Assembly (NCBI GenBank): GCA_019163135.1
Contig: JAFLKR010000030.1
Span: 1 to 32,696, forward strand
Origin: Desulfobulbaceae bacterium
GTDB lineage: Bacteria; Desulfobacterota; Desulfobulbia; Desulfobulbales; Desulfobulbaceae
DNA: 32,696 nucleotides
Direction: 5' to 3'
Position numbers and translations under genes: made by a program
The notes under the pieces: generated by a model
What the model saw: only the letters and a program-made list of their open reading frames with translations
Databases searched by the model: none
Told to the model about the DNA's origin: nothing
Part shown: one piece after another, positions 4,773-29,152 of the stretch
How positions within the stretch are numbered: position 1 is the stretch's first letter
How the letters are laid out: each line of letters starts with the position of its first letter

Positions 4773-6368
4773 TTAACCCTTATCCTGAATCCAGCTCTTG
4801 AGGACATGGGCACTGAAAACCGGATTTTCCTCCACCTCAGATTTAATCTTCTTTAGCGGATCTTTCGCCCTCGTTTCACCGGCAGCACCGCCATGTTCAC
4901 CTCTGGCCTGTTCGGTTTCCATTTGCTCGACAGTTTTATAGTGTTGGGTGACATCTCGTTTTAAGGTCTTCATAAGCGGCCGGATCATGAGGAAGTAGAG
5001 GAGTGCGCCTCCAAGCAGCAGGAGGCTGTAGCGGATGAGCGGCATATATTGGGAGAGCACCTTAGAAGCAAACCCTTCGGTTTCAGCGGTTTCTGCCGAT
5101 TCAAGGAACGGCATGGAGGTGACTTCGATTATGTCACCCCTGGTTTTGTCCAACCCCAGCGCCGAGGCTACCATAGTCTCAAGGGCTTTGAGTTCCGCTT
5201 CGGTCCTCGCTTCGGTTTTCGCCGGTTCTTTATCCTTGGCTGGGGCGACCTTGTCGGCAACCAGCACCGAGACGGAAAGCTTGCTTACCGTACCAACCGG
5301 ATTGGTGGTTTTGGAGACGACCTTGCTGATCTCGTAATTAGTGGTGCGCTGCGATCGACTAGAAGGCGGCGAGGCCCCCGATGGTTGGGCGGTGGGGCCC
5401 TCAAGGTTGGATTGGACGCCGGGTACGCCGCCGGTTATTTCCGACCCGGTTCTTTCCTCGCTCTGCTGTTCGCTGCGAATGACCGGTTCTTCCGGATCAA
5501 AGGTTTCTTCGGTTTTTTCTTTGTGGGCAAAATCCAGGATAGCGGTAACCCGCACCATCGCATTTTTGGCCCCCAGCGATTTATCGAGCAGGGCCTGGGC
5601 ACGTTCCTCCATGCGATGTTCAACTTGCATCTGATATTCTAACATGTCGGGGGAGATATTGCCGGACAATCCTTTGCCGCCAACGCGGGAAAGTACATTG
5701 CCATTTTGATCGATAACCGTGACCTGCTCAGGGCTTAATCCCTCGATGGAACTGGAAACCAGATGAACGATACCTTCGGTCTGGGCTTCGCTCAATCGTT
5801 TCCCAGGAGCGAGTTTGAGAATGATCGAGGCGGTTGCCGGTTGCTGCTGATCCTTGAATAATCGTTTTTCAGGCAAGGCCAGATGGACCCGGGCCGACTC
5901 CACCGGGCCGAGCGAGGCTATGGTGCGGGAGAGCTCGCCTTGTAACGCTCTTGAATAATTAACTTTCTGAACGAAATCGGTTAGGGCGAAGGATTGCTTG
6001 TCAAAGATTTCAAAGCCAACCCCACCGCCTTGCGGCAACCCCGACGAGGCCAAGCTTAACCGGGTTTCATAGACATTTTTAACCGGCACCAGAATATTGC
6101 GGCCGTTGTTGGCGAGTTGATAGGGGATGTTTTGCCGCTTGAGCACTTCGATCATGGCCGAGGCATCCGATTCCGCCAGATTGCCATAGAGCAACTGGTA
6201 ATCGGCGGTCCTCGCCTGGATGATGATGAAGGCAAACAGGCCGATAGAAATGACGGTCACTGCAGCCAGGGCCATCTTGCGCGGCAAAGGCCACCCTGCA
6301 ATCGTGGCGATGAACATCTGCAATGCGTTTTTCGGTTTCTGAGGGGAAACCTCTGTTGGTTCAGCCAT
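4773..6368 (-). CDS. fliF: Flagellar MS-ring protein FliF
   Basis: A 531-aa inner-membrane ring protein, the assembly base of the flagellum and housing of the export gate. Two membrane helices are visible at about residues 31-51 and 444-463. Between them is the large periplasmic part with ring-building motifs, including QLLYGNLAESDA, GVGFEIFDK and a long stretch around ESARVHLALPEKRLF typical of YscJ/FliF secretin-like domains. A disordered Ser/Thr/Pro-rich loop follows near residues 300-340. The cytoplasmic tail (about 490-531) ends with an acidic/amphipathic FliG-binding segment (ENPVFSAHVLKSWI). Length is normal. It lies 78 bp downstream of fliE and 59 bp before fliG. Confidence 0.97.
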   Translation of the reverse strand: MAEPTEVSPQKPKNALQMFIATIAGWPLPRKMALAAVTVISIGLFAFIIIQARTADYQLLYGNLAESDASAMIEVLKRQNIPYQLANNGRNILVPVKNVYETRLSLASSGLPQGGGVGFEIFDKQSFALTDFVQKVNYSRALQGELSRTIASLGPVESARVHLALPEKRLFKDQQQPATASIILKLAPGKRLSEAQTEGIVHLVSSSIEGLSPEQVTVIDQNGNVLSRVGGKGLSGNISPDMLEYQMQVEHRMEERAQALLDKSLGAKNAMVRVTAILDFAHKEKTEETFDPEEPVIRSEQQSEERTGSEITGGVPGVQSNLEGPTAQPSGASPPSSRSQRTTNYEISKVVSKTTNPVGTVSKLSVSVLVADKVAPAKDKEPAKTEARTEAELKALETMVASALGLDKTRGDIIEVTSMPFLESAETAETEGFASKVLSQYMPLIRYSLLLLGGALLYFLMIRPLMKTLKRDVTQHYKTVEQMETEQARGEHGGAAGETRAKDPLKKIKSEVEENPVFSAHVLKSWIQDKG

Positions 6369-6446
6369 AGTGCATCCCTGCTGCTGTTATCGGTTAAAAA
6401 TGAGGGTCTGTATTTTTTTTATGCCGTTACGAACCCAGAACTACCA

Positions 6447-6743
6447 TCAGACCTGCATCCGCATGATTTCCTGGTAGGCGTCAATGGCTTTATTCCTCAC
6501 CTGAATCATGTATCGAAGGGAGATGTCGGCCTTTTCCATGGAAATCATGGCCCCGTGCAGATTTTTTTCGTCACCGGCATGCAGTTGTTGCATGGCTTGG
6601 TCAGCGGTCTGCTGGGTTTGGTTGGTTTCGGCCACCATGGTTTTAAGGATATCACCAAACGATGACTCCGCCTGGGTCGCCGCAGAGGCGTTTGTTTGCA
6701 CCGGGGTGGTGAGCGCCGGGGCAATGCTCTGGATTGCTTCCAT
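6447..6743 (-). CDS. fliE: Flagellar hook-basal body protein FliE
   Basis: A 98-aa protein of the usual FliE size. The C-terminal half has the family signature: SFGDILKTM, then QTADQAMQQLHAG, DISLRYMIQVRNKAIDAY and a final EIMRMQV. FliE is the adaptor between the MS ring and the proximal rod and is the first rod-type substrate of the export apparatus. It has no cleavable signal, as expected for a type III substrate. The start lies 3 bp after the flgC stop, giving the classic flgB-flgC-fliE order in which all three products build the base of the rod. Confidence 0.95.
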   Translation of the reverse strand: MEAIQSIAPALTTPVQTNASAATQAESSFGDILKTMVAETNQTQQTADQAMQQLHAGDEKNLHGAMISMEKADISLRYMIQVRNKAIDAYQEIMRMQV

Positions 6744-6746
6744 GGA

Positions 6747-7184
6747 TTATCTCCCGATTTCGAGTGCTTTCATGGCCATGCGTTTGGCCGATTTGATAGT
6801 AGTGGTGTTGGCCTCGTAGGAGCGCGTCGCCGACATCATGTCGACCATCTCCTTGATGGTGCTGACATTAGGCATCTCTACATACCCATCCTCTTTCGCA
6901 TCCGGGTGCGAAGGGTCATAGATGCGTTGCGGCGGGCTCTTGTCTTCGATAATTCTGGCAACCTTGACCCCCTGGACCTGCCCTTGGGGCCGCATGGATT
7001 GGTCCAGATGCTGTTTGAAGGGGAGTTTTTCGGTTTCAAAGACCACCGATTTCTTCTTATAAGGCCCACCTTCCGGGGTAGAGGTGGTCTCGGCGTTGGC
7101 GAGATTGCTGCTGATGGTATTGAGCCGGGTTGTCTGAGCCTTCAGTCCTGAGGCTGCTATGTCAAAGGTCGTAAAGATATCCAT
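6747..7184 (-). CDS. flgC: Flagellar basal-body rod protein FlgC
   Basis: A 145-aa proximal rod protein. The N-terminus has the rod/hook family motif (FDIAASGLKAQTTRLNTISS followed by NLANAET). The C-terminus has the matching helix motif (NVSTIKEMVDMMSATRSYEA, then a short tail ending KALEIGR). Both ends pair into the coiled coil that packs the axial structure. AGGAG lies 6 bases before the ATG. A -24/-12 promoter-like site overlaps the end of flgB just upstream, so flgC-fliE-fliF and later genes may have a second promoter besides the operon's first one. Confidence 0.96.
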   Translation of the reverse strand: MDIFTTFDIAASGLKAQTTRLNTISSNLANAETTSTPEGGPYKKKSVVFETEKLPFKQHLDQSMRPQGQVQGVKVARIIEDKSPPQRIYDPSHPDAKEDGYVEMPNVSTIKEMVDMMSATRSYEANTTTIKSAKRMAMKALEIGR

Positions 7185-7216
7185 ATTGACTCCTGGTTGA
7201 TTGTATATTTTATCTA

Positions 7217-7232
7217 TGCAAATTATGCGCCA
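7217..7232 (-). promoter_or_regulatory. Candidate sigma-54 (-24/-12) promoter before flgC
   Basis: On the minus strand the site reads TGGCGCATAATTTGCA, against the consensus TGGCAC-N5-TTGC(A/T). It has the required GG-N10-GC spacing and one mismatch in the -24 box. It overlaps the flgB stop codon and would start RNA roughly 20 bases before the flgC ATG. Sigma-54 control of flagellar genes is well known, and an activator gene is present at 15907-16989. Being inside an operon, it would be a secondary promoter. It could still be chance. Confidence 0.5.
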
Positions 7233-7636
7233 CCGTTTGCGGCGTATTTAAGCAGGGAGAGTTTTTTGCTCAACATAGTGATCGCGGTCTCATAGAGGAT
7301 TTCGTTCTTAGAGAGCTTGATCATTTCCTGTTCAACACTGACGCTGTTCTGATCGCCGATGCCGGTGGTGTCCCTTTTGGTGTTGACGGTACCGGTCACC
7401 TGGTCGAGGTTGGTCGGGGTCAGGGGAATGTGATTGGGTTGGGTCGATACCGAGCGCAGGCCGTTTTCCGACAGGGCATTTTTGAGTTGATCCTCAAAGG
7501 TGAAGGATTGGGCCGAATAACCGGGGGTCTCGGCATTGGCGATATTGGCGCCGATGATCTCCTGGTTCTTAGAGCGAAGATCAAGCACCTTTTGAAGCAT
7601 CTGGGTAGTAGTGTCGAACTGCTGAATGCCGGGCAT
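7223..7636 (-). CDS. flgB: Flagellar basal-body rod protein FlgB
   Basis: A 137-aa proximal rod subunit. Near the N-terminus is the rod-family segment (VLDLRSKNQEIIGANIAN followed by AETPGY). The C-terminus has the partner helix (VSVEQEMIKLSKNEILYETA, then MLSKKLSLLKYA). I chose ATG 7636 because GGAGGT lies 6 bases upstream and the protein then begins MPGIQQFDTTTQML, as in the family. The same frame is open upstream to ATG 7741, but that extension would overlap the TPR gene and has no family match. It follows the TPR gene by 64 bp. Confidence 0.95.
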   Translation of the reverse strand: MPGIQQFDTTTQMLQKVLDLRSKNQEIIGANIANAETPGYSAQSFTFEDQLKNALSENGLRSVSTQPNHIPLTPTNLDQVTGTVNTKRDTTGIGDQNSVSVEQEMIKLSKNEILYETAITMLSKKLSLLKYAANGGA

Positions 7637-7700
7637 AACGGACCTCCGATGTTTATGAGTCTCGATGGCGGCCGACAGGGTTGTATCAACCGCTTTCGGA

Positions 7701-10130
7701 TTATTTTTTTTGCTGCAGTTGCAAGATCGCCGCTTCTTCACCGGCGAGTTTGGTCCAGAGAGGATCTTTTCCTTTTTCGGCTAATTCTTTGAACAGCTTA
7801 AGTGCTTGGGTGGTATTGTTTTTTTTCGATTCAATCTGTGCCAGTCTGAATTGAGCCTGCTCTATGTCACTCCCTTGTTCTTTCATCCGCCCAAAAGCTT
7901 GGGCAGCCAGGTCATCCTGGCCGGTTTGAAAATAGGCTTCCGCCAGGAGCAGGGTGGCTTGGTTGGCGGCGATTATGGGCTGCAATTCGGGGTCGGACAG
8001 GGTGTCAATCACCTCCTGCCACCGTTTCAACTCGAAAAAGATGCGGGCTTTGAGCAATTCGAGTTGGGGGGTCCGGTGGCGAGTGTCGGCTTGGAGGAGT
8101 TTAACAGCCTGGTCGAATTGGCCACTTGCATACAGCGCCCGGATCTTGAACAAAAAAATCGCTGGTTCATCGTTACCTTTGGGGTAATTGAGCAGATAAC
8201 GGTCGGCGTACTCTTCCACCTGGACGTAACGATCGGCATCAAAAAGTCCTTGAAGCAGCGGCAGATAAATTTTTTCTTTGTCGGCTTCAGACGAAATTTC
8301 AAAAAGGTATTGATAGGTCTGGGCGGTCTGATCAGCCAGGCCGAGATTGCTGTAGGCGTTGGCTAAATCATAAAGCAGGTTGGTGTTGAGCCAGCCATTG
8401 GAGAAAAAAGATTTGTTCTGTTTGGCCAAGACCAGGGCTTTGACGTATTCTTTATCTTTAACCAATTGCTTGATAACCACTGGCAACTGTTCGATGAGCA
8501 AAGCTTTGGTTTCCAGGCGCAGCCTTCCCGACTGAAAGCTTCGCAGTATTTCCATGCACTGGGCCACGCTTTTCTGGCGATCTCCGGCGAGTGCGTTAAC
8601 CAGGGCCTGTTTGAAAGCGGCCTCTTCCCGGAGCGCTACGGTATCGGCCTGGGTTGCCATTTTACCGTAGGCGGTTTCCGCAGATGTTGCATTCATCCGT
8701 TTGGCCACGAAATCCAGATCGATCTGTTTAAGGAGGGCCCGTGCCCCGCCCTCGGTGCGGGAAAAAGCATCCTGGATTTGCTGGAGATCGATTCTGGCCT
8801 TCTTCTCGGTTGCCGAAATATGGAGTTCGGCCATAGCCAATCGGTAGAGCGCCAAATCCTGACCAGGTTTATTGTTGAGCAGATCACCGAGCAGTCGATA
8901 TTTTTTGGCCGCCTTTGGAAAGCGCTTGTCGGTGTACAGGGCGTCGCTGAAATGGGCCAGGGACATGGGGTCGGTATCGATGATGGGCGATTGGCTTTCA
9001 AGTTCCAGGTAGGCTGTCAGCGCTTTGGCTTTTTCTTTTTTCTGGTAGAGGAGGTCGGCCTGTCGCAGGAGTCGGACCGCCCTGAGGGCTTCGCTGCGGA
9101 CGACATCGTCACGAACCAGGATTTTTTCGGCATCAGCGGTTCGTCCGGACATCAGGGCTAATTCAGCCAGCAAGAGGTTGCAATGGGCTGTAAAGGGGAT
9201 GTTATTTTCTATTTTCTTGAAGAGGCCCGTGAGTTCATAATAGGCGGAAATATGGTCTCCCTTGATTGCCTGCTGATAAATCTGGAGCAGTTGGGCGAGG
9301 GAGGCCATCAGGGTGTCCGGGTATTGGAGGACAATTTTCTGCAAGAGGGCGTGCGGTTCTTTGTATTCCCCTGCTCTGACCAGGGCTTCGCCATAGGCCA
9401 GTGCCAGTCGTTCCTTTAAGGATTCGTCAGGTTGGTTTTCCAGTTGCATCCGTAGTCGTTGGTACACCTGAGACCATTTATTTTCATTGGCCAAGGCCTG
9501 GATCTCCGCGGGCAACCACAGTTCATCGGCTAGTTTTGGCGGCATGGCCGCAGCCAGCGGGAACGGCGGCAGCAATAGCCTGGGAGGAACTGCGATCTCC
9601 ACCGGCGATTCGTACCCCGTGAAAAACGAAACCCAATTTTTGGCATAGGCGGAGGCCGTCACCGGGTTGAGCGCATCGGCATCAGCCCGTTTGACAGTGG
9701 CAACCCCTTGTAATTTTGAGGAGAGTTCCTGGGAGGTGGCGACAAGCGGATCACCCAATATAATATCAAGCACGAGGGTGGCGCTTTCTTTGTTGCTCTC
9801 CGCCATAACCTTCTGCGGAGGATAACGAAAATAGAAAGAAAGAACGGTTTTTGATTTTTGTTGCGCATTGACCATTTTGATCATTTTGCCATCGGTGGGC
9901 GGCGGCGCCAGATGGTCTGCCAGGAGGGTGTCCTGCAGTTCAAGGTCGATTCTCCGGCCGGTGGTGGTCGTGGTGAAAGCGGGCAATAGATCAAAGTGCA
10001 GCGTGAGTTGCAAGTGGGGGGCCGCATCGGTGCGATTGATGGCTTTCAATAGCACAGCAGCTTGTGCAGAACCATTTGAGCACAGAATGCCAACAAGCAG
10101 AAGTGTGATGATAAGGCTGCGATTGATCAT
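7701..10130 (-). CDS. Exported TPR-repeat protein heading the flagellar operon, AMIN-like N-terminus
   Basis: About 809 aa. From ATG 10130 it starts with a signal peptide (MINRSLIITLLLVGI followed by LCSNGSAQA), so the protein should be periplasmic or envelope-bound. Residues about 25-130 are a beta-rich segment resembling AMIN-type domains (LQLTLHFDLLPAF, then RIDLELQDTLLADH). From about 200 onward there are many degenerate TPR-like helical repeats (for example ALAYGEALVRAGEYKEPHALL, ANAYSNLGLADQTAQTYQYL, LLAEAYFQTGQDDLAAQAFG). I do not recognise a named family. Its position as first gene before flgB and behind a -24/-12 site suggests an envelope role in flagellar assembly or placement. ATG 10166 is a possible earlier start; ATG 10217 lies at or before the promoter candidate and is unlikely. 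No strong ribosome site decides between 10130 and 10166. Confidence 0.75.
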   Translation of the reverse strand: MINRSLIITLLLVGILCSNGSAQAAVLLKAINRTDAAPHLQLTLHFDLLPAFTTTTTGRRIDLELQDTLLADHLAPPPTDGKMIKMVNAQQKSKTVLSFYFRYPPQKVMAESNKESATLVLDIILGDPLVATSQELSSKLQGVATVKRADADALNPVTASAYAKNWVSFFTGYESPVEIAVPPRLLLPPFPLAAAMPPKLADELWLPAEIQALANENKWSQVYQRLRMQLENQPDESLKERLALAYGEALVRAGEYKEPHALLQKIVLQYPDTLMASLAQLLQIYQQAIKGDHISAYYELTGLFKKIENNIPFTAHCNLLLAELALMSGRTADAEKILVRDDVVRSEALRAVRLLRQADLLYQKKEKAKALTAYLELESQSPIIDTDPMSLAHFSDALYTDKRFPKAAKKYRLLGDLLNNKPGQDLALYRLAMAELHISATEKKARIDLQQIQDAFSRTEGGARALLKQIDLDFVAKRMNATSAETAYGKMATQADTVALREEAAFKQALVNALAGDRQKSVAQCMEILRSFQSGRLRLETKALLIEQLPVVIKQLVKDKEYVKALVLAKQNKSFFSNGWLNTNLLYDLANAYSNLGLADQTAQTYQYLFEISSEADKEKIYLPLLQGLFDADRYVQVEEYADRYLLNYPKGNDEPAIFLFKIRALYASGQFDQAVKLLQADTRHRTPQLELLKARIFFELKRWQEVIDTLSDPELQPIIAANQATLLLAEAYFQTGQDDLAAQAFGRMKEQGSDIEQAQFRLAQIESKKNNTTQALKLFKELAEKGKDPLWTKLAGEEAAILQLQQKK

Positions 10131-10449
10131 AGGGTTTTGTCGGCAGAGAGTGCGGCTTGCGGTCATGTGGCCAAAGGGGAACCATGCTGGATACTCTTCA
10201 AGCAATAAACATTCCATGCAAAGCCTGCGGACTGTTTCGGTGTGCGGTCTGCTGTTTGGTTGTATTAAATCAATAAACCGAGGCCGGTAGCTCTTTTCGG
10301 CAAAGCTGATGGCAGTGTCATATTTTTGGCGTTTGCGATAGTGTCGACTGTTTCATTGGCAGACGTCATGGGATTTGCTATCGTGGGACCGGTCAGCAGA
10401 GTTTTTTAACGATAAGGTTCAGGACTACGCAAGTTCTCGGGAGGAAGAG
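10131..10449. other. Divergent intergenic region between flagellar operon and chemosensory genes
   Basis: About 320 bp with no supported gene. It should carry the promoters of both the leftward flagellar operon and the rightward CheA-like gene. I see the leftward -24/-12 site (10201-10216) but no convincing sigma-70, sigma-28 or sigma-54 site for the rightward gene. The CheA-like frame is open back to a TTG at 10375. Confidence 0.5.
10201..10216 (-). promoter_or_regulatory. Candidate sigma-54 (-24/-12) promoter for the flagellar operon
   Basis: On the minus strand the site reads TGGAATGTTTATTGCT. The -12 box (TTGCT) is perfect, GG-N10-GC spacing is exact, and the -24 box has two mismatches to TGGCAC. 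Transcription would start near 10190, about 60 bases before ATG 10130 of the TPR gene, which fits a first-gene promoter. Recognition by sigma-54 RNA polymerase and the activator at 15907-16989 is inferred. Confidence 0.5.
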
Positions 10450-12240
10450 GTGAGGGTTCCAGAGGAAGACTATACAATACTTGAAGATTTCGTGCAGGAG
10501 AGCCTGGCAGGGGTGAAGCGCGCAACTCCTTTTGTCAAGGCCTTGGTGGAACAACCCGACCGGGAGGATATTCTGCCCAAGGTGACCGAGCATTGTTTTC
10601 ACCTGTTTCATTCCATTAAGGGTACAGGCGGTTTTCTTCAACTTGATCAGCTGGTACGTCCAGCCGAGGCGATGGAATATCTGCTTGACCGGATTAGATC
10701 CGGAGTGCAGTCGTTCACACCCATGCTGGTCTCCTTGCTGGCCGAATCCTGTCAATTCATGGAGAAGGGATTACCGCTGCTGCTGATTAATAAAAGCGAT
10801 GAACGCCTGGCCACTTCGGCTCAAGCCTTGACTGCGGCTATTTTTCAGGCCATGAAGGTCGGGGAAGAAGATTCCTGGGTCGATGGGTCGGCAGCCTTGG
10901 AGCCGCATGGGATGCACGATACTTTCTTATTGGAAACCGAGAATCTTTTGACCACGGCGGAGCAGGAGTTTGTGCTCTGGGATTTTATCGCCATGGATCA
11001 TCAGCGAATGGAGGATTTATGCCGCCTGCTGCATCGCTTAAAGCAAAATTTCGCGCTTTTTGAACTGAAGGATCTGGAACGATTATGTCTGGCTCTTGAG
11101 TCCGCCTTGACCCGTTACCTCCAGGGTGAATTTTTCCAGACCGAATATCCCGAAAGGGTCTTTTTGCGAAGTATCGATGCGGTGCGGAGCGCCTTGACCA
11201 GTATCACCCGCCTGGGCGATGTTGCCGTCACCGGCCTGGATCATCATCTGGCCGCTCTGCAGGGTTTGATGCGGCAACCGATCGGCACTTTGCTGATCGA
11301 GGCTGGCCTGGTGAATCCCCAAGTCATCGAAGATGCCCTTGAGGTGCAGAAAAGTTGCCGGGATACAACGCCCCGCCGTTTGGGTGAGGTCTTGGTGGAT
11401 ATGGGAGAGGTGACCCCGGACCAGATCCAGCATATCCTCCAGGCGCAGCATAGTAATCGCGCGCGGGCGGCACAGGCGGAAACTATACTCAGTAGCGTCT
11501 GTCAGCCTCAGGGGCAACCGTCACCGGCAAGCGCTGTCTATAATGAAATAAGCATCGATGGCCGGAAAATTGCAAGAATTGTAGAGTTGGTCAATCAACT
11601 GGCGGTGCTGTACCAACCGGAAGGAGCCGCTGCCGGTATTTTTTCGGAATTGAAGATGCTGGCGAAATCCTGTAACCAGGAAGCCCTTGCCGCTTTTTCC
11701 TCCCGACTGAAGCGGTTGGTGCATGACTTGGCGGTGCAATATAATAAACGGGTCTATTTCGTTATCGAAGGCATTGATACCCTCCTCGACCAGCGCGATA
11801 TATTTCTCCTGGCCGATCCGTTGCTGTATCTTCTTCGTAACGGCGTTGAGCATGGCCTGGAAACCGTCGAGGAACGAATGCTGGCAGGGAAAAGAAAGAG
11901 CGGCAAATTGACGTTGACCGCCCTGCAGCACGGTGCTGAAATCTGGGTGAGTATTGAAGACGATGGTCAGGGTTTTGACATGAAGAAAATAGCTAACTTG
12001 GCCGTTGCCCAAAACTTGGTCGATAGAGAAGGTGTTGCCAATCTCACCCCTCGGGAACTCGCGCAACTCTTCTTTCGATCTCAGACCTCTATCGACAACG
12101 ATTCGCAAGGCGCACCGGGCCAGAACGCCGGTTTGACCTTAGTCAGGGACCGAATCCAGCAGTTGCAGGGCAGGGTTGAGATGCTGACTCGCCCTGACAA
12201 GGGGACCAGGATAACCCTAAAGGTACCACAACAGCACTGA
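10450..12240 (+). CDS. CheA-like histidine kinase lacking the CheW-like regulatory domain
   Basis: About 596 aa from GTG 10450, which has GGGAGG 5 bases upstream; a TTG at 10375 would add 25 residues. An HPt domain comes first, with phosphoacceptor His54 in HSIKGTGGF. A second HPt-like helical region holds a degenerate motif (HRLKQNFALF, His195). Residues about 276-335 look like two MshEN-type half repeats (IGTLLIEAGLV, LGEVLVDMGEVTPDQI). A CheA-type dimerisation stretch follows (DGRKIARIVELVNQLA, about 370-387). The C-terminal ATPase has an N box (LLRNGVEHG), a G1 box (DDGQGF) and a final glycine-rich strand (PDKGTRITLKVP). CheA normally continues into a ~130-aa P5 domain that binds CheW and receptors, but this protein stops there. 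It is followed by cheY and cheX-type genes, so CheY is its likely target. Input must differ from classical CheW-coupled receptors. Confidence 0.85.
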   Translation: MRVPEEDYTILEDFVQESLAGVKRATPFVKALVEQPDREDILPKVTEHCFHLFHSIKGTGGFLQLDQLVRPAEAMEYLLDRIRSGVQSFTPMLVSLLAESCQFMEKGLPLLLINKSDERLATSAQALTAAIFQAMKVGEEDSWVDGSAALEPHGMHDTFLLETENLLTTAEQEFVLWDFIAMDHQRMEDLCRLLHRLKQNFALFELKDLERLCLALESALTRYLQGEFFQTEYPERVFLRSIDAVRSALTSITRLGDVAVTGLDHHLAALQGLMRQPIGTLLIEAGLVNPQVIEDALEVQKSCRDTTPRRLGEVLVDMGEVTPDQIQHILQAQHSNRARAAQAETILSSVCQPQGQPSPASAVYNEISIDGRKIARIVELVNQLAVLYQPEGAAAGIFSELKMLAKSCNQEALAAFSSRLKRLVHDLAVQYNKRVYFVIEGIDTLLDQRDIFLLADPLLYLLRNGVEHGLETVEERMLAGKRKSGKLTLTALQHGAEIWVSIEDDGQGFDMKKIANLAVAQNLVDREGVANLTPRELAQLFFRSQTSIDNDSQGAPGQNAGLTLVRDRIQQLQGRVEMLTRPDKGTRITLKVPQQH

Positions 12241-12250
12241 GACATTATTA

Positions 12251-12296
12251 GGGAAAAAGCAACTTGGCAGGAAGAAACCTTGCTTTCCCTGTTTTG
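12251..12296 (+). terminator. Terminator-like hairpin after the CheA-like gene
   Basis: Arms 12251-12262 (GGGAAAAAGCAA) and 12280-12289 (TTGCTTTCCC) pair, with two extra A's bulged on the left. A 17-base loop lies between them and GTTTT follows. The T-run is short, so it may terminate only partly. A weak -24/-12-like match (AGGAAGAAACCTTGCT, 12269-12284) overlaps the same bases, so either reading is possible. Confidence 0.5.
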
Positions 12297-12408
12297 GTCT
12301 TGATAGAATGACCAATATAATAATACTTCCGCCTCATTTTTTGGATTTGTTGAAGTGGAAAGCGCGCTTACTATGCGGAAGCTATACTATGACCAAGAGG
12401 AGAAAATA

Positions 12409-12780
12409 ATGGCAAAGAATGTACTGCTCGTTGACGATTCCAGCACGATGCGAAAGATCATCAGCCGTTCGCTGCGTCAAGCAGGGCTTGATTTTGGAGA
12501 GATTTATGAAGCTGGCGACGGTCAGGAAGCCTTGGCTATGCTCGAGAAGGAATCCATTGATATCGTTTTGAGCGACATCAATATGCCCAATATGAATGGA
12601 ATTGAGTTCCTTCGTGAAAAGGGCAATCGTCCCGCCATCAAAGATATCCCAGTTTTTATGATCTCTACCGAAACCGGTGAGGATATCATCGGCGAAGCCA
12701 AGAGTCTGGGGGCCATCGGTGCTCTGAAAAAACCTTTTACCCCTGATAAGGTCAATGAGGTTCTCGGACCGTTCATGTAA
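12409..12780 (+). CDS. cheY: Chemotaxis response regulator CheY
   Basis: A 123-aa single-domain receiver. The acidic pair is Asp9-Asp10 (LLVDDSSTMRK), the phosphoacceptor is Asp56 (VLSDINMPNMNG), the Ser/Thr switch is in MISTETG (86-87), and the conserved Lys is Lys108 in KKPF. There is no output domain, so it is a diffusible CheY expected to bind FliM/FliG at the flagellar switch. I chose ATG 12409 because AGAGGAG lies 7-8 bases upstream and the product begins at the first beta strand. The longer frame from 12355 adds residues with no family match. Its donor is probably the CheA-like kinase just upstream, and the CheX-type proteins downstream are its likely phosphatases. Hairpins on both sides suggest it can be made as a separate transcript. 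Confidence 0.95.
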   Translation: MAKNVLLVDDSSTMRKIISRSLRQAGLDFGEIYEAGDGQEALAMLEKESIDIVLSDINMPNMNGIEFLREKGNRPAIKDIPVFMISTETGEDIIGEAKSLGAIGALKKPFTPDKVNEVLGPFM

Positions 12781-12812
12781 AAATAAAGCCGTTTGATAGA
12801 GAGACATTCTTG

Positions 12813-12851
12813 CCTGTTGAACATGACGGATGTCATCCGGAACAGGTTTTT
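12813..12851 (+). terminator. Rho-independent terminator after cheY
   Basis: A nested hairpin has outer arms CCTGTT (12813-12818) and AACAGG (12841-12846), inner arms ATGAC and GTCAT (12823-12827 and 12832-12836), and a small internal loop between them. TTTTT follows at 12847-12851. This is a good intrinsic terminator shape, 33 bases after the cheY stop and before the ribosome site of the next gene. Confidence 0.65.
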
Positions 12852-12869
12852 GGATAGGGAGGGTAAGGT

Positions 12870-13346
12870 GTGAATGGTACTAACAGTTTTTCCGAAATCA
12901 ATGATAAGATCATTGAGGCAACAATAGAAATATTCACCGGCATGGTGATGATGGAGATTTCGGTAGGCGGAGAGCCGTTGCTGACGCTCGGGCCATTGAA
13001 AAACTCAATCACTGGCATGATCGGTCTGGCCGGCATCCATAAAGGAGTGCTCGCCGTCCATTTTCCCAAGCAGGTAGCATTGGATGTTACCAGCAGCTTT
13101 CTCGGGATGGAAGTCAGCGAGATCGACGCCGATGTTCAGGACGCCATCGGTGAGATCGCCAACATACTTGGCGGTAACCTTAAAACCATTCTCTCTGATC
13201 GGGGCAAAGATATCCAACTTTCCCTGCCGTCGACCATTTATGGCGACCAGTACGCCTTTACCTCCCAGGCCGATGTGGATCAGGTTATTCTGCCCTTTCA
13301 GGCGCCTTCCGGAATGTTTTATGTCGAGGTGGAACTTGAGCGATAA
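12870..13346 (+). CDS. CheX-type chemotaxis phosphatase (first copy)
   Basis: A 158-aa protein of the CheX/CheC/FliY fold. The phosphatase signature Glu-x-x-Asn is present in DAIGEIANILGG (Glu95, Asn98). In this family the pair positions the CheY phosphoryl group and a water for hydrolysis. The surrounding pattern also fits: a long first helix (DKIIEATIEIFTGMVMMEI), then IGLAGIHKGVLAVHF and a closing strand (GMFYVEVELE). The start is GTG 12870 behind a GGAGGG-type ribosome site. A second, related gene follows after 48 bp and probably arose by duplication. The likely role is to remove phosphate from the CheY encoded just upstream. No receptor-modifying genes lie nearby. Confidence 0.85.
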   Translation: MNGTNSFSEINDKIIEATIEIFTGMVMMEISVGGEPLLTLGPLKNSITGMIGLAGIHKGVLAVHFPKQVALDVTSSFLGMEVSEIDADVQDAIGEIANILGGNLKTILSDRGKDIQLSLPSTIYGDQYAFTSQADVDQVILPFQAPSGMFYVEVELER

Positions 13347-13394
13347 TATTTTTGCCGGTTGCAAGTAACGGACTTCTATCAAGGGAGTATTTTT

Positions 13395-13850
13395 TTGGAT
13401 TTAGAAAATGTTTTAATCCAGGCCACGTTGGAGGTCTTCGCCGCCATGATTTTCATCGAAATCACGCCGGAGAAACCGTTGGAGGCTGGAGCGGCAATGG
13501 AATACAACCTAACCAGTCTCATCGGGCTGGCCGGCGATTTCAAAGGTATTCTCGCCATCCAGTGCCCCGCAGAGGTGGCGATGGGTATCACTGGAGCCAT
13601 GCTCGGCATGGAGGTGACGGAACTCGGCGTGGATGCCCAAGACGCCATCGGTGAAATTGCCAACATGGTGGCCGGTGGCCTTAAAGAGGCGTTAACCTCC
13701 TCCGGGAAAAAAACAGAGTTGGCCATTCCCACCACTGTTATCGGTACGTCCATCAGGACCAGCGGTCTTTCCGGATCCTCACGGGTCATGATCCCGTTTT
13801 CCAGCCCACTGGGACAGTTCGGGGTCGAACTCAGATACATCATTACCTGA
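13395..13850 (+). CDS. CheX-type chemotaxis phosphatase (second, paralogous copy)
   Basis: A 151-aa paralogue of the preceding gene, sharing the helix start (VLIQATLEVFAAMIFIEI), the segment IGLAGDFKGILAIQ and the phosphatase motif DAIGEIANMVAGG (Glu87, Asn90). I chose TTG 13395 because AGGGAG lies about 8 bases upstream and the product then aligns with the first copy; a TTG at 13359 would add 12 residues without a ribosome site. The two proteins have diverged clearly outside the core, especially in the C-terminal half, so they may form a heterodimer or act on different phosphorylated partners. CheX is known to work as a dimer. Confidence 0.82.
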   Translation: MDLENVLIQATLEVFAAMIFIEITPEKPLEAGAAMEYNLTSLIGLAGDFKGILAIQCPAEVAMGITGAMLGMEVTELGVDAQDAIGEIANMVAGGLKEALTSSGKKTELAIPTTVIGTSIRTSGLSGSSRVMIPFSSPLGQFGVELRYIIT

Positions 13851-13853
13851 GGG

Positions 13854-13869
13854 AAAGAGTTAACTCTTT
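13854..13869. repeat. 16-bp perfect palindrome after the CheX pair
   Basis: AAAGAGTTAACTCTTT is a perfect palindrome without a loop, lying 3 bases after the stop of the second cheX-type gene. It could be the site of a dimeric DNA-binding protein or the stem of a weak terminator (ATGTGCTTTTG follows). The sequence gives no further proof of either. Confidence 0.4.
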
Positions 13870-13986
13870 ATGTGCTTTTGCCGAAATATATAAAACAATG
13901 TCTGATAGCGTGTCGTACCGCTGCTTGTCCGTTAGGTCACGCTTAGGCGGCATGGATAGTCAATTCAACCGAATCTGTAGGATCGA

Positions 13987-14002
13987 TGGTCGATCTGTTG
14001 CT
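13987..14002 (+). promoter_or_regulatory. Weak candidate sigma-54 site before the tandem CheX gene
   Basis: TGGTCGATCTGTTGCT has exact GG-N10-GC spacing and a perfect -12 box, but three mismatches in the -24 box. It would start RNA about 35 bases before ATG 14047, a sensible distance. It sits in a 196-bp spacer, which suggests the tandem CheX gene has its own promoter. Confidence 0.35.
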
Positions 14003-14046
14003 TGGGGTCGGGTCGGGATTCTTTTCAGCTTAACGATGCCTGCGTG

Positions 14047-15894
14047 ATGAAAGCCAGAGAACGCTTCGATAAAATATTGCTCTCCTGCTGTACCCGGATC
14101 CAGGAAGAGGTTGCCTCTCTGGTCGGTAAGCCGTTCAAATTAGGCGAGCCCCAGTTCCGAGAATGCAGTAAGGCAGATTTGTTCACAGAGCCCGGTGGCA
14201 AGCGTGTGCTTGCTCATGTCCGGATCGATGGAGAACTCCTGGGCGCGGGCTGCTTGCTGGTTGGGATCAGGGACGCCATCCAGATCGGCGGCGCGCTCAT
14301 CATGCTTCCTGAATCCGAATTGGCAAGTTTGAGCGCCGAAGAACAGTATTCCGAGGAATTGCAGGATTCTTTCGGAGAGGTGGCGAATATCGTCTGCGGG
14401 GCGATCACCGTCATTTTTGAAGAGCAATATCCCAAAAAAGTGCGTTTTGTCAGGGTAGAGCAGGAAGTTATTATCCCGGTTACGGTGGATATCGAATCCG
14501 AATTGCCGATTGCTGATGGTTCGTACTACCTGATGACCGTTCCCATGTGGTTGGATAATCGTGATCTTGGCGGTCTCGATGTGGTCTTCCCCGCAGTGCT
14601 TTTTGGCTTGGCCTCGGAGGCTGCCAAAGAAAAGGCTGCTTCCGAGGAGGTCGCGGCAAAGGTGACACCTGTTCCGGAAGTACAGCAACCTCACGAGCAG
14701 GAGCCGATAGGGACGATCGAGGGCAAGGGGGGCGATGCAAGGGGGGAGGAAGAGGTCGGCATTCTGGAACGACCTGGAACCGCAGTTGCAGAGGAACCCG
14801 GTCAACCGGTGCACACCAAACAAGATCTTGAAAAGCAGAAAAGAATTGTTGATGAACTGCTGAAAAACAGCATGGCCAAGATGTGCGAGGAGGTCAGCGC
14901 CCTGCTCGGGGGGACGCTGAAGGTCGTACCCACTGAGCACGCCGCTTTTTCAAAAGCAGATTTTTTGGAGCAGGCCGGCGGCAAGCAGATTATGGCCCGC
15001 ATGGATATTCGTGGCGAAGGGCAGGGCGAGGCCTTTCTGTTTGTGGATATCAAAACTGCCGTGTATCTGGGCGGCAGTCTGATTATGCTACCGGAAGGTG
15101 AACTGGAGGCGACTGTTCGCAACGAAGACTTCGGGGACGACGCCAATGATGCCTACGGTGAGGTAACCAATATCATCGCCGGTGTCTACACTGCCGTCTT
15201 TGAGGAACAATACCGCACCAAACTCGGGTTTGTGAAGACCTCAATGGAACCGGTCACTCCGGTCAAGGTCGATGTCGAATCCGACGATATCATTCCCAAT
15301 CAACCCTATTATCTCTCCGCCGGGCAGATGCAGTATAACGGCAAGGACCTGGGGAGACTGCAACTCGTTCTGCCGGCCCGGGTGCTGGAACTGGAAGATC
15401 TCCTTAAGCTCGAAGAGGAGACGGCCGCAACAGGCGAAGCGCAGAGCAAGGCCATGCCCAAACCGGCAGCCAAAGATCCAGGCCTATCGCCCGCAGAGCC
15501 TGGCCGCCTGCAGGGAAAAGCCTCTGAGAGTGCCGATATCCTCATCTTCACCGATGACGATACGGAAGGCGATCGAATCGCTACGGCCTTGCAGCAGTTG
15601 GGCTATGTTTCCCGTACGCTGCATTTCAAAGATTCGGTGGGTAGCTTGTTGACTCCGCGTATTCAGATGGTTTTTTTGGTGATGCAGGAGGTGAGCGAGC
15701 AGGGATTTGGGGTGGCTATCAAAATCAGCAGTGCAGGATTGTCGGTGCCTCTGGTGGCTGCCGGTCCGGCCTGGACCAGGACGTTGGTGCTGAAAGCTGT
15801 GAAATACGGAGCCTGTGATATCCTCATTACCCCCTCTGCACCGGCCGATGTCCGGGAAAAAATAGAGCTCAATCTGGTGAAAAGAGCTGCCTGA
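14047..15894 (+). CDS. Tandem CheX-type protein with C-terminal degenerate receiver domain
   Basis: About 615 aa from ATG 14047; no strong ribosome site is visible, and a TTG at 14002 would extend it by 15 residues. There are two related CheX/CheC-like domains at about 5-190 and 265-455. Each has the Glu-x-x-Asn phosphatase motif (DSFGEVANIVCG, Glu111/Asn114; DAYGEVTNIIAG, Glu372/Asn375) and shared blocks such as GGALIMLPE/GGSLIMLPE and AVFEEQY/VIFEEQY. Charged linkers separate them. Residues about 495-612 have a receiver fold. The acidic cluster (FTDDDTEGDR) survives, but the phosphoacceptor Asp is replaced (QMVFLVMQEV), the Thr position reads VAAGPA, and the Lys-Pro reads ITPSAP. It should not be phosphorylated and may act as a docking domain. 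Likely role: a multivalent CheY phosphatase or scaffold. It converges with the sigma-54 activator gene with 12 bp between stops. Confidence 0.8.
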   Translation: MKARERFDKILLSCCTRIQEEVASLVGKPFKLGEPQFRECSKADLFTEPGGKRVLAHVRIDGELLGAGCLLVGIRDAIQIGGALIMLPESELASLSAEEQYSEELQDSFGEVANIVCGAITVIFEEQYPKKVRFVRVEQEVIIPVTVDIESELPIADGSYYLMTVPMWLDNRDLGGLDVVFPAVLFGLASEAAKEKAASEEVAAKVTPVPEVQQPHEQEPIGTIEGKGGDARGEEEVGILERPGTAVAEEPGQPVHTKQDLEKQKRIVDELLKNSMAKMCEEVSALLGGTLKVVPTEHAAFSKADFLEQAGGKQIMARMDIRGEGQGEAFLFVDIKTAVYLGGSLIMLPEGELEATVRNEDFGDDANDAYGEVTNIIAGVYTAVFEEQYRTKLGFVKTSMEPVTPVKVDVESDDIIPNQPYYLSAGQMQYNGKDLGRLQLVLPARVLELEDLLKLEEETAATGEAQSKAMPKPAAKDPGLSPAEPGRLQGKASESADILIFTDDDTEGDRIATALQQLGYVSRTLHFKDSVGSLLTPRIQMVFLVMQEVSEQGFGVAIKISSAGLSVPLVAAGPAWTRTLVLKAVKYGACDILITPSAPADVREKIELNLVKRAA

Positions 15895-18304: not shown

Positions 18305-19750
18305 TTACATTCCCGCCAAGGCTGCGGTGGTCCAATCCAGGAGCGGCCCCGGAAAAAAACCGAAGCCGAGCACGCCAAGCAGGCAGAGGCCAAGTGCCGC
18401 GGTCATTCCCGGAGAAAAAGAGCAGGAGATGGTCTGCTGCGACTCGCTCATATACATATAGCGTACCACCCGCAGGTAAAAATAGGCGGAGATGGCACTG
18501 AACAGGACCGCGCCGATTACGGTCAGGGTATACCCGGCGGAAAAGGCCGCCTTAAGCAGATAGAACTTGCCGATGAATCCGCCGGTCGGCGGAATCCCGG
18601 TCAGGGAAAAAAGAAAGACCAGCATCATGGCAGCGGCCAGAGGATGCCGGGAGGCCAAGCCCTTACAGTCATCCAGCGATTCATGGGGCTGGTCGGGGGT
18701 GGCCAGAAGCATGAGAATGCCAAAGGCTCCCATGTTCATGAACAGGTAAATAATCAGATAGGTCATGGTGGCGGCCAAGCCCTCGGCAGTGCCGGCCAGC
18801 AGGCCGAGCAGGGCATATCCGGCATGGGCGATGGCCGAATAGGCCAGCATCCGTTTGAGGCTCCGCTGGCACAGCGCGGTGATGTTGCCCACCGCCATGG
18901 TCAACAGGGCCAGCACCGCCAGCACTGGGCCCCAATGTTCGTGGAGTTCGGGCAAGCCAAGGAACAGCAGGCGACCGAAGATGGCGAAGCCGGCCACCTT
19001 GGGGCTGACGGACATGAAGGCCGTTATCACTGTGGGGGCACCTTCATAGACATCCGGAGTCCAGAGGTGAAACGGTGCCACAGCAACCTTGAAACAAAAA
19101 CCGGCGATCAGCAGGGCAAGGGCCGCCATCAGGGCAGGATTGTTGCCCAGATGCAGCGTGGCGATCAGTTCGGCGATCCGGGCGATGTCGGTGGTGCCGG
19201 TCAGTCCGTAAAGCAACGACATCCCGAACAAGAGCAAGGCTGAGGCAAAGCTGCCCATGAGGAAATATTTGATTGCAGCCTCGCTGGTGCGCTGCTCTGT
19301 TTTGTGCAATCCCACCAGGGCATAGATCGGCAGGGCCATCAGTTCAAGTCCCAGGTAGAGGACCATCAAGTCGCCCGCTGAAGCCATCATCAGCATACCG
19401 ACTGCGGAAAAGACCATCAGGCTGTAATATTCTCCCTGCCGAAGACCGATGATGCGGCAAAAATGTTCGCTCATCAGCGTGGTCAGTATCACCCCGGCCA
19501 GGCAGGTGCTCTTGAAGACGATTGCATAGCCGTCAACCAGAAACATGCCGCCAAAGGCCACGGACGGTCGAGAGCCTACGACCATGGCCAGAGTGGTGAG
19601 GCAGCCGACCACGGTCAGCCAGGGCAGTACTTGCCGCTGCCGGGGGACGAAGATATCAAGACCGATCAGCAGCACGCCGATACCGATCAGCAGCAGTTCC
19701 GGTAGGATGGGTTCAACAACGGCCCAGTTGATAGCCACGGTAGGGATCAT
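18305..19750 (-). CDS. nuoN: NADH-quinone oxidoreductase subunit N
   Basis: A 481-aa antiporter-like membrane subunit of complex I, homologous to Mrp antiporter proteins and to NuoL/NuoM. About 14 hydrophobic helices are visible. The signature region FKVAVAPFHLWTPDVYEGAP leads into PTVITAFMSVSPKVAGF, with conserved charged residues inside membrane helices (the Lys of FKVAVAPFH and the Glu of LGLELMALP) that form the proton path. GGAG lies 5 bases before ATG 19750. It is the last gene of the nuo operon, as usual, but is separated from nuoM by 172 bp that hold a 51-codon open frame. I see no clear terminator in the 137 bp between its stop and the convergent nuclease gene. Confidence 0.97.
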   Translation of the reverse strand: MIPTVAINWAVVEPILPELLLIGIGVLLIGLDIFVPRQRQVLPWLTVVGCLTTLAMVVGSRPSVAFGGMFLVDGYAIVFKSTCLAGVILTTLMSEHFCRIIGLRQGEYYSLMVFSAVGMLMMASAGDLMVLYLGLELMALPIYALVGLHKTEQRTSEAAIKYFLMGSFASALLLFGMSLLYGLTGTTDIARIAELIATLHLGNNPALMAALALLIAGFCFKVAVAPFHLWTPDVYEGAPTVITAFMSVSPKVAGFAIFGRLLFLGLPELHEHWGPVLAVLALLTMAVGNITALCQRSLKRMLAYSAIAHAGYALLGLLAGTAEGLAATMTYLIIYLFMNMGAFGILMLLATPDQPHESLDDCKGLASRHPLAAAMMLVFLFSLTGIPPTGGFIGKFYLLKAAFSAGYTLTVIGAVLFSAISAYFYLRVVRYMYMSESQQTISCSFSPGMTAALGLCLLGVLGFGFFPGPLLDWTTAALAGM

Positions 19751-19767
19751 TATCGCTCCGTAAATAT

Positions 19768-19923
19768 TCAGGTTGTTTGTCTCTTGGACGGTAGTCCGTT
19801 AGACAGAAAAGGGTCATCAGCAGGGTCTCTAAACAGTCTTAACCGGTCATTTCCAGTCACTCTCTGGCTGTCCATTCTCAGACGAAAAACCGACAATCTT
19901 GTTATCTCAACCACTGGTTCCAT
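19768..19923 (-). CDS. Hypothetical 51-aa small ORF between nuoM and nuoN
   Basis: An ATG overlaps the nuoM stop in a TAATG arrangement, and the frame runs 51 codons to a TGA 17 bp before the nuoN ATG, filling the gap almost exactly. The product starts MEPVVEITRLSVFRL and ends PSKRQTT. It is basic and polar with no membrane helix and no family I recognise. Against it: there is no ribosome site apart from coupling to nuoM, and several Arg codons are AGA, unlike the CGC/CGG-rich neighbours. It may be a real small protein or just an open spacer. Confidence 0.3.
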   Translation of the reverse strand: MEPVVEITRLSVFRLRMDSQRVTGNDRLRLFRDPADDPFLSNGLPSKRQTT

Positions 19924-21434
19924 TAAGGGGGCGGTATCAGGCCGGGTACCAGAAGCGTTCCGGCCAGCCCTACCCCATTGACCTGATCGAGCAGATGGCC
20001 GACCGAGACATGGAGAAAGCCGAGCAGGGCGTTGGGATAGAGGCCAATCCAGAAAATAAGCAGGACCATGGGCAACAGGGTGAGAATCTCCCGCAGGTTC
20101 AGTTCAACCAAGCCTCGCATGGATTCCTTGATTTCATTAAAAAAGATGCGCTGATAGAGCCAGAGCATGTACCAGGCCCCCAAGATCAGGCCGGAGGCGG
20201 CGATCACCGCCGTCCATGGCAGGCGTTCAAAGCCGCCGAGCAGAATAAGGAATTCGCCGATAAAGCCGTTGGTGCCGGGCAAACCCACCGCCGCCAGGGT
20301 AAACAGCAGAAAAAAACCGGCAAACACCGGCATGGTGGAGGCCAGGCCGCCGTAGGCGACGATCTCTCGGGTGTGGGTGCGTTCGTAGATCATGCCGATG
20401 GCCAGGAACAGGGCACCGGTGACCACGCCGTGATTGATCATCTGCAGAATCCCCCCCTCCAGTCCCCGTTGATTGAGGGCGAAAAGTCCCAGTGTGACAA
20501 AGCCCATGTGACTGACTGAACTGTAGGCGATCAAACGTTTGAGATCGGTTTGTGCCAGGCAGATGATCGCCCCGTAGACAATGGCGATCACCGAGAGAAT
20601 CAGCATGGGCAAGAGCATCTGCTGGGTGGCATCGGGCAGGATGGGCAAGGAGAAGCGGAGGAAACCGTAGGCGCCCATCTTAATCAGCACCCCGGCCAGG
20701 ATGACCGATCCGGCGGCTGGGGCCTCGGTATGAGCATCCGGCAACCAGGTATGCACCGGCCACATTGGTACCTTGACCGCAAAAGCAGCAAAAAAAGCCC
20801 AGAAAAGGATCAGTTGCAACTTAAGCGAATAGGGTTGACCGGCGAGTTGGAGAATGTCGAAGGTATGGCCGCCGTTCTGGTAGAGCAGAATAATCCCCAC
20901 CAGCATCAGCAGGCTGCCGACTAAGGTGTAGAGAAAAAATTTAACGGTGGCGTAAATCCGCTTTGGTCCGCCCCAGACCCCGATGATCAAAAACATCGGG
21001 ATGAGCATGGCCTCCCAGAAGATGTAGAAGAGGAAAAAGTCGGTGGCGCAGAAGACTCCCATCATCGCCCCTTCCAGCACCAGCAAAGCCACAAAAAATT
21101 CCTGCACCTTGTGGGTGATGCTTTCCCAGGACACCAGGATAGAGAGGACGATAATCAGGGCGGTGAGCAGGAGGAAAAGTACGCTGATGCCGTCGATGCC
21201 GAGGGCATAGTTGATGTTCAGGGCCTTGATCCAGGGGTGGTGCTCCTGAAACTGCATGAGATAGGTGGTCTTGTCGAAGAGCAGAAGGGCCGGCAAGCAG
21301 AGCAGGAACTCGATCAGACTGATGAGCAGCGCCATCAGGCGAATAGTCGCGATCTGCTGCCGCGGCACGATCAGCAGCGAAAGCCCGCCAAGGACCGGGA
21401 AGAAAATCAGGGTGCTGAGGAGAGGTATCGACAT
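19923..21434 (-). CDS. nuoM: NADH-quinone oxidoreductase subunit M
   Basis: A 503-aa antiporter-like subunit of the complex I membrane arm. It has the essential Glu in the FYIFWEAMLIPMFLIIGVWGG segment, the Lys-containing helix (FAVKVPMWPVHTWLPDAHTE, then APAAGSVILAGVLIKMGAYG), and the later conserved block IAYSSVSHMGFVTLGLF. Length and helix count (about 14) are normal. NuoM conducts one of the translocated protons and docks between NuoN and NuoL. It begins 30 bp after the nuoL stop and ends overlapping the start codon of the small open frame that precedes nuoN. Confidence 0.98.
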   Translation of the reverse strand: MSIPLLSTLIFFPVLGGLSLLIVPRQQIATIRLMALLISLIEFLLCLPALLLFDKTTYLMQFQEHHPWIKALNINYALGIDGISVLFLLLTALIIVLSILVSWESITHKVQEFFVALLVLEGAMMGVFCATDFFLFYIFWEAMLIPMFLIIGVWGGPKRIYATVKFFLYTLVGSLLMLVGIILLYQNGGHTFDILQLAGQPYSLKLQLILFWAFFAAFAVKVPMWPVHTWLPDAHTEAPAAGSVILAGVLIKMGAYGFLRFSLPILPDATQQMLLPMLILSVIAIVYGAIICLAQTDLKRLIAYSSVSHMGFVTLGLFALNQRGLEGGILQMINHGVVTGALFLAIGMIYERTHTREIVAYGGLASTMPVFAGFFLLFTLAAVGLPGTNGFIGEFLILLGGFERLPWTAVIAASGLILGAWYMLWLYQRIFFNEIKESMRGLVELNLREILTLLPMVLLIFWIGLYPNALLGFLHVSVGHLLDQVNGVGLAGTLLVPGLIPPP

Positions 21435-21464
21435 GGATGAAGCTTCCGGTAGAAGGATTTTGGT

Positions 21465-24273: not shown

Positions 24274-24286
24274 GGATTCCCCCTTG

Positions 24287-24925: not shown

Positions 24926-24941
24926 TTTTTGAATTTCCCCC

Positions 24942-25910: not shown

Positions 25911-25959
25911 ATCGTTCCTCGGTCTTCAAGCAGGCCGGTTACATGGTGAAAGAAAACAA

Positions 25960-28632: not shown

Positions 28633-28646
28633 GGCTGCGGTTTCCT

Positions 28647-29150: not shown

Positions 29151-29152
29151 AG

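Follow-up and report, generated by a model that had tools for sequence, protein, structure and literature searches.

In the Cle system, c-di-GMP is bound by the CheY-like protein itself. The Cle proteins of Caulobacter (PMC5677366, in the part of that account available to us) feed c-di-GMP information into CheY-like flagellar motor control, as the locus described here may likewise do; the candidate c-di-GMP receptor here, however, is a CheA derivative. The available portion of its description (Wang et al. 2016, PMC5013675) defines the MshEN domain by a pair of motifs of 24 residues each, 5 residues apart, and gives a relaxed pattern for them; the same portion already reports the association of MshEN with CheA and CheX. 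In PilF, the available part of the structural account (PMC11731258) gives a GSPII-C domain that has three motifs, binds c-di-GMP and carries Pro at position 1 of motif II. What we report as new is the P5-less, degraded form of MshEN-CheA, the association itself being known. In the literature searched, no MshEN-CheA was described as lacking P5 or as catalytically degraded, and the domain-combination supplement of PMC5013675, which lay outside that search, may list the architecture.

We analysed a stretch of 32,696 nucleotides from a Desulfobulbaceae bacterium (contig JAFLKR010000030.1), referred to here as the window, and within it the gene at 10450-12240, whose product we call the window protein. 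MshEN-CheA proteins that retain P5 (a paralogue in the source genome, L061, and 20 relatives, L133-L152) share with the window protein an HPt, an MshEN between HPt and P3, and the CheA P4; unlike it, they have both P5 and an identifiable P3 (20/20 relatives and 7/7 MshEN paralogues), and their N, G1 and G2 boxes are intact. Canonical CheA (Thermotoga maritima, E. coli) shares the P4 sequence and fold (1i58, which matched residues 417-593 of the window protein in a PDB sequence search, E 1.8e-33; 4xiv), whereas the window protein has no P5, a shrunken P3, a degraded G2, an extra HPt-like bundle and MshEN.

Domain layout and genomic setting

The reading frame begins with a GTG start preceded by the purine-rich GGGAGGAAGAG, a good ribosome-binding stretch, and it encodes HPt, degenerate HPt, MshEN, shortened P3 and CheA ATPase, in that order. 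The features of the gene and its surroundings are as follows.

7223-7741, minus strand: flgB, beyond the TPR gene in the divergent flagellar operon
7701-10217, minus strand: TPR protein of the divergent flagellar operon, by which the locus is recognised in relatives
10450-12240, plus strand: CheA-derived gene, 596 aa, without P5 (open reading frame, profile searches)
10450-10881, plus strand: HPt1, P1-like, residues 1-144 (Pfam Hpt, PDB CheA P1 matches, AlphaFold helices)
10609-10611, plus strand: His54, candidate phospho-acceptor in the HSIKG of HPt1 (motif table)
10906-11214, plus strand: degenerate HPt2-like bundle, residues 153-255 (Pfam Hpt 155-222, alignment)
11032-11034, plus strand: His195 of HPt2, with KG replaced by KQ (alignment)
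11278-11448, plus strand: predicted MshEN-type c-di-GMP domain, residues 277-333 (NF053729.1, superposition)
11278-11349, plus strand: MshEN motif I, residues 277-300 (motif table)
11377-11448, plus strand: MshEN motif II, residues 310-333, RLGEVLV, with Glu at position 11 (motif table)
11560-11697, plus strand: shortened P3-like helical stretch, residues 371-416 (AlphaFold model; no Pfam recognition)
11698-12234, plus strand: CheA P4 ATPase domain, residues 417-595 (Pfam, PDB sequence matches, fold)
12118-12135, plus strand: degraded G2 box GQNAGL in P4 (motif counts)
12409-12780, plus strand: CheY (Pfam), 88-98% identical in 19 orthologous loci
12870-13346, plus strand: CheX phosphatase 1, GEIAN motif (Pfam)
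13359-13850, plus strand: CheX phosphatase 2 (Pfam)
14002-15894, plus strand: tandem CheX-like domains with a REC-like C-terminus (profile searches)

Pfam recognised Hpt in two stretches of the window protein (best 155-222, E 1.7e-14) and HATPase_c at 461-595 (E 3.9e-12), and returned no match to CheW or H-kinase_dim. The AlphaFold model, built from 43 aligned relatives, has a mean pLDDT of 85.7, with values below 50 at 143-152, 353-366 and the ATP-lid region 547-557; it has a five-helix HPt1 followed by a second HPt-like bundle, a short P3-like hairpin (371-387/393-430) and, at the C-terminus, a GHKL ATPase fold of CheA type. Foldseek ranked CheA P3P4 and P4 first for this model, with the P4 fold matching 8oyq_B at a TM of 0.91 by target. 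A preliminary description of this gene, made from the sequence alone, had proposed an HPt domain, a second degenerate HPt-like region and a terminal ATPase, all of which Pfam, the PDB matches and the AlphaFold model bear out; the CheA-like dimerisation stretch that it also named survives as the short hairpin in the model, shrunken and without Pfam recognition. A DUF4388 candidate in the window protein was dropped, its 19.5 bits lying below the cut-off of 25.

The minus strand of the window encodes FliJ, the FliI ATPase, FliH, FliG, FliF, an FlgC-like rod protein and FlgB, and the usual locus reads flgB and TPR on one side, then the kinase-like gene, CheY, CheX, CheX and the tandem-CheX gene, followed by a sigma-54 activator and a cNMP-binding protein. 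In CheY, 94 of 123 columns were invariant across 20 sequences, and its 88-98% identity compares with 49-87% for flgB and 30-80% for the kinase-like gene; judging from these alignments, the constraint on CheY is far above that on its neighbours, and unusual for a CheY. Both CheX1 and CheX2 keep the motif E and N in 18 loci each. The tandem-CheX product has 630 residues in two CheX-like halves; its REC-like C-terminus gave no Pfam receiver match, and a phospho-Asp is absent by eye. Only the C-terminal half of this protein is retained in G018 and G025 and only its end in G038, and the tandem-CheX matches in G031, G008, G048, G033, G038, G049 and G065 are each reported with one stop codon, which may lie inside the gene or outside it.

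Across 73 genomes of the family we found the kinase-like gene in 24, CheY in 32 and the tandem-CheX protein in 40; the gene and CheY occurred together in 20, the gene alone in four (G023, G024, G028 and G038; completeness 100, 56, 76 and 85%) and CheY alone in 12. The tandem-CheX protein, whole or in part, was present in all 24 genomes with the kinase-like gene (in G038, its end only). We read ten of the CheY-alone loci: in nine, less than 1.2 kb separates TPR from CheY and nothing there matches the gene, and in the tenth (L158) the distance between the two is 6.4 kb. The kinase-like gene is thus accessory at the locus, and since 12 genomes have CheY without it, CheY does not depend on its product for phosphate in general. 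The source genome has other CheA genes and 20 GGDEF matches, so that the cell probably has both phosphate donors and c-di-GMP available. A search of named genomes gave 30 loci, of which 20 had N-terminal matches and came from in or near Desulfobulbaceae (mostly named Desulfobulbus, Desulfogranum or Desulfobulbaceae, with three under none of these names); the remainder comprised one Spirochaetota relative (L093) and nine loci matching the MshEN part only. Desulfobulbus rhabdoformis carries a P5-less orthologue (L086, 7950-9773) that has lost the HPt1 His (KLFSLLN) and stands outside the 23 orthologues counted below; Desulfogranum mediterraneum (L083) has the gene as well.

The MshEN domain

The NCBIfam model NF053729.1 (MshE-related c-di-GMP domain) covered residues 277-333 of the window protein over its full length (model positions 1-53 of 53) at 45.5 bits versus a cut-off of 38, and it matched 23 of 23 Desulfobulbaceae orthologues at E 0.001 or better. 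Among PDB entries compared by sequence, PilF matched residues 276-345 (E 6.9e-6) and MshE 5htl matched residues 274-334 (E 0.0013). The modelled helices 278-284, 290-302, 311-317 and 323-351 reproduce the short-long-short-long pattern of MshEN, and a separate AlphaFold model of residues 260-350 (pLDDT 83.7) aligned with c-di-GMP-bound MshE 5htl_A at Z 9.4 (rmsd 1.8 over 60 residues) and with five PilF GSPII-B entries at Z 8.5-8.8 (8pdk: 8.7). The six best structural rows were all MshE or PilF, the PilB N-terminus reached Z 6.0, and unrelated structures appeared from 5.5. Foldseek E values for this small model were weak (0.038 at best), and helical bundles can reach middling Z by chance; the MshEN claim therefore rests on sequence and fold together. 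A structural match of residues 276-335 to MshEN had been set beforehand as a test in the preliminary description, and the 5htl alignment supplied it.

Motif I fully satisfies the relaxed pattern, taken from the available portion of PMC5013675, and motif II breaks it at position 11 alone, which is Glu; motif I fits in 21 of 23 orthologues, the window included, and position 11 of motif II deviates in 22 of 23. The spacer between the motifs has 9 residues in the window protein and 9-11 among orthologues, versus 5 in that portion of the source. The earlier impression of short repeats without a clear full consensus needs correction in that both 24-residue motifs are present. Position 1 of motif I is Pro in every one of the 23 orthologues, and G3 and G10 of both motifs, together with Q24 of motif I, are invariant in the same set; in three ATPase-less orthologues (L058, L059 and L060), Gly has replaced Q24 of motif II. 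The GSPII-B domains of MshE and PilF (5htl, 8pdk) resemble that of the window protein in having two 24-residue motifs and a four-helix bundle, and differ from it in their spacer of 5 instead of 9 and in Arg, Lys or Leu at position 1 of motif I instead of Pro. No stretch similar to the C-terminal MshEN subdomain was matched in the window protein. From motifs and fold we infer that this MshEN binds c-di-GMP, and a c-di-GMP input to the window protein, which had earlier been called conceivable, is now strongly suggested by sequence and model.

Loss of P5 and the state of the catalytic residues

We aligned 23 loci from the 24 family genomes that have the gene (G050, split over two contigs, was excluded) and set them against 20 P5-bearing relatives from other families of the same order; 23 genomes outside the family had matched at E 1e-20 or better, and 20 were fetched, without G187, G226 and G227. 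In this comparison set, motif I of L145 is missing from the alignment, and the end of a contig truncates L133. By Pfam, CheW (P5) was found in 0/23 orthologues vs 20/20 relatives and H-kinase_dim (P3) likewise in 0/23 vs 20/20, which confirms the original observation that the window protein has no CheW-coupling domain. The gap between the window gene and the downstream CheY measures 168 bases, so no P5 is concealed there, and a P5 hidden by a frameshift or in the pre-CheY gap was excluded, the gaps of relatives being small too. A separately encoded P5, also looked for, was not among the window proteins scanned; the source genome does encode CheW domains at other places. One frame of 520 residues in that genome (G000:C53, about 18423-19862; L069) has three consecutive CheW domains.

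All 20 P5-bearing relatives (723-856 aa) match the MshE c-di-GMP model and have MshEN in the same position, and the special step was therefore a loss and not an insertion. A new MshEN insertion into a P5-less CheA was rejected on this ground, and of the 'inserted MshEN-like region' first proposed, the MshEN stands and the insertion does not. In the tree, the 23 orthologues and the 20 relatives fall on either side of a branch supported at 100/100; the basal forks among the 23 did not resolve, and L056 and L057 sit on long branches. Because domain content and tree agree, the P5-less form would most simply have arisen by a single loss within Desulfobulbaceae. Judged by frame length, no short form occurred outside the family in a phylum-wide sample of 394 genomes drawn from a larger group, in which 11 outside-family genomes with matches had open frames of 754 aa or more. 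P5 is present in the Spirochaetota relative (721 aa), and the paralogue L061 of the source genome (704 aa) has both MshEN and P5. In another family, locus L147 has a P5-bearing relative at the same flgB-TPR place (6221-14062), with a PBP-like protein, an MCP receptor, CheW and CheR downstream; this arrangement is likely the ancestral form of the locus.

The N-box His and the G2 box are important for CheA catalysis. In the window protein, the HSIKG of HPt1, the N-box Asn (N464) and the G1 box are all intact, two of the three G2 glycines are kept and the N-box His has become Tyr; the last two changes weaken the reading of the protein as a working CheA-type kinase. Across the family, the HPt1 His is present in 16/23 orthologues vs 20/20 P5-bearing relatives, its states requiring at least five changes on the tree, and the seven proteins that lack it retain MshEN. 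HxxKG of HPt2 was found in 0/23 orthologues vs 18/20 relatives, and E173, W177, R222, G226 and P234 of the HPt2-like bundle are invariant in the 23. Among the 20 orthologues that have the ATPase, the N-box His is kept in 11 and the G2 box in four (absent from the window protein), vs 20/20 relatives for each, when G2 is counted as GRGxG[ML] (a pattern without Arg would also accept L044); N464 and G1 are intact in 20/20, and G561, the last G2 glycine, is conserved in at least 90% of all alignment rows. The ATPase domain is absent from the remaining three (L058-L060, one genus), proteins of 409-411 aa consisting of HPt1, the HPt2-like bundle, MshEN and a short tail, all of which retain the HPt1 His (HSLKG twice, HSLQG once). 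Near the family base, L055 has HPt1, N-box and G2 all intact and, going by these motifs, could be an active kinase.

We then compared mean pairwise identities by domain in the 20 ATPase-bearing orthologues (the three ATPase-less proteins excluded) and the 20 relatives, which come from several families. MshEN, the most conserved domain among orthologues by identity, stood at 54.4% vs 45.9% in relatives, and the HPt2 core was about equal (46.4% vs 47.3%); identities were 37.3% vs 50.9% for HPt1, 24.4% vs 71.9% for P3 and 40.7% vs 67.3% for P4. We estimated dN/dS by a simple counting method for eight pairs; dS reached saturation in window-L040 (HPt1, P3, P4) and in L043-L050 (HPt1, HPt2, P3, P4). 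Window-L039 gave 0.08-0.17, that is, purifying selection on all five domains, with P4 at 0.11 and MshEN at 0.15; the constraint on MshEN was thus not stronger than that on P4, and L039-L040 and L044-L045 likewise ranked MshEN no more constrained than P4. Values in other measurable cases were 0.09-0.40, with 1.24 for P3 of L046-L047 and 0.97 over 16 tail codons of L058-L059. Purifying selection between the window and L039 indicates that the gene is in use and that P4, too, is maintained in the window's subclade, and a neutral pseudogene in that subclade was rejected.

Possible roles of the protein

Taking sequence and model together, we put at roughly 0.5 the probability that the window protein is a c-di-GMP receptor or adaptor derived from CheA and not chiefly a kinase, and the comparison suggests a chemotaxis kinase turning into a signal receptor within the Desulfobulbus group. 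The ancestor would have been a receptor-array CheA with the order HPt-HPt-MshEN-P3-P4-P5, from which P5 was lost in Desulfobulbaceae, so that the protein can no longer join arrays through P5; in this form, as a bar to array entry through P5, the earlier claim that the protein cannot join arrays in the normal way is upheld. The catalytic parts have since decayed, further in some genomes than in others, and MshEN has stayed the most constant, along with invariant residues in the adjoining HPt2-like bundle. The present protein would act mainly as a cytoplasmic receptor or adaptor whose MshEN binds c-di-GMP and which probably dimerises via the short P3-like hairpin. Binding may alter the way in which CheY or the neighbouring CheX proteins are held by the HPt-like surfaces, a contact that we infer, and may in this way tune CheY-P at the flagellar motor, with phosphate for the adjacent CheY presumably supplied for the most part by the cell's other CheA proteins. 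Residual autophosphorylation by the window protein is possible. A more sharply drawn version, in which a CheA was converted within one family to a c-di-GMP-gated, non-enzymatic adaptor (a pseudokinase) coupling the messenger to CheY/CheX at the flagellar base, jointly with a series running from the seemingly intact kinase L055 through the degraded window clade to the ATPase-less L058-L060, we offer tentatively, as something a little short of probable. Several findings count against an adaptor: the window protein and its two nearest relatives keep HSIKG of HPt1 intact, N464 and G1 are kept wherever there is an ATPase, G561 is conserved in nearly all rows, P4 is under purifying selection between the window and L039, with a dN/dS lower than that of MshEN, L055 could be an active kinase, and the MshEN motifs depart from the available published pattern and from MshE/PilF in Pro at position 1, Glu at position 11 and the spacer of 9.

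The same residues speak for the main alternative, a soluble working kinase, which, freed from the arrays by losing P5, would autophosphorylate His54 and phosphorylate CheY under c-di-GMP, at least in the window lineage; the intact HSIKG, N464 and G1, the retained P4 fold with its low dN/dS, and the gene order kinase-CheY-CheX-CheX all fit it. We nevertheless consider such a kinase rather unlikely, since a full G2 is missing from 16/20 and the N-box His from 9/20 ATPase-bearing orthologues, the ATP-lid region is modelled with low confidence, the HPt1 His has been lost in 7/23 and the ATPase in 3/23, and 12 of 73 genomes have CheY without the gene; the last three counts likewise weaken the earlier proposal of a kinase for the adjacent CheY. 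The absence of the gene from those CheY-bearing genomes, the stepwise losses and the two high dN/dS values (P3 of L046-L047, tail of L058-L059) could also be read as decay, in which case MshEN would be just a stable helical module that binds no c-di-GMP, the protein would have little role in motility, and CheY and CheX would suffice. Purifying selection on five domains in window-L039, the values of 0.09-0.40 in the other measurable cases, and the invariance of G3, G10 and Q24 of motif I and of G3 and G10 of motif II, make a decaying remnant improbable. More improbable still is a phosphate sink or shuttle, in which HPt1 would receive phosphate from CheY-P or another CheA and thereby buffer CheY-P, with c-di-GMP setting access to HPt1 and the ATPase dispensable: the three ATPase-less proteins do retain the HPt1 His, and CheX phosphatases adjoin the gene, but the seven orthologues without that His still keep MshEN.

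If a receptor or adaptor derived from CheA is indeed encoded here, the family would offer a route from an array-bound chemotaxis kinase to a free second-messenger receptor, with intermediates in named Desulfobulbus and Desulfogranum isolates. It would also give CheY control a direct c-di-GMP input that acts through a derivative of CheA and differs from Cle and PilZ effectors, and the automatic annotation of such genes as 'CheA' may overstate their kinase activity.

Beyond the flagellar/CheY block, and adjoining it, positions 18305-31258 of the window hold complex I-like (nuo) genes, and the distal end of this stretch encodes a molybdopterin oxidoreductase and a 4Fe-4S protein.
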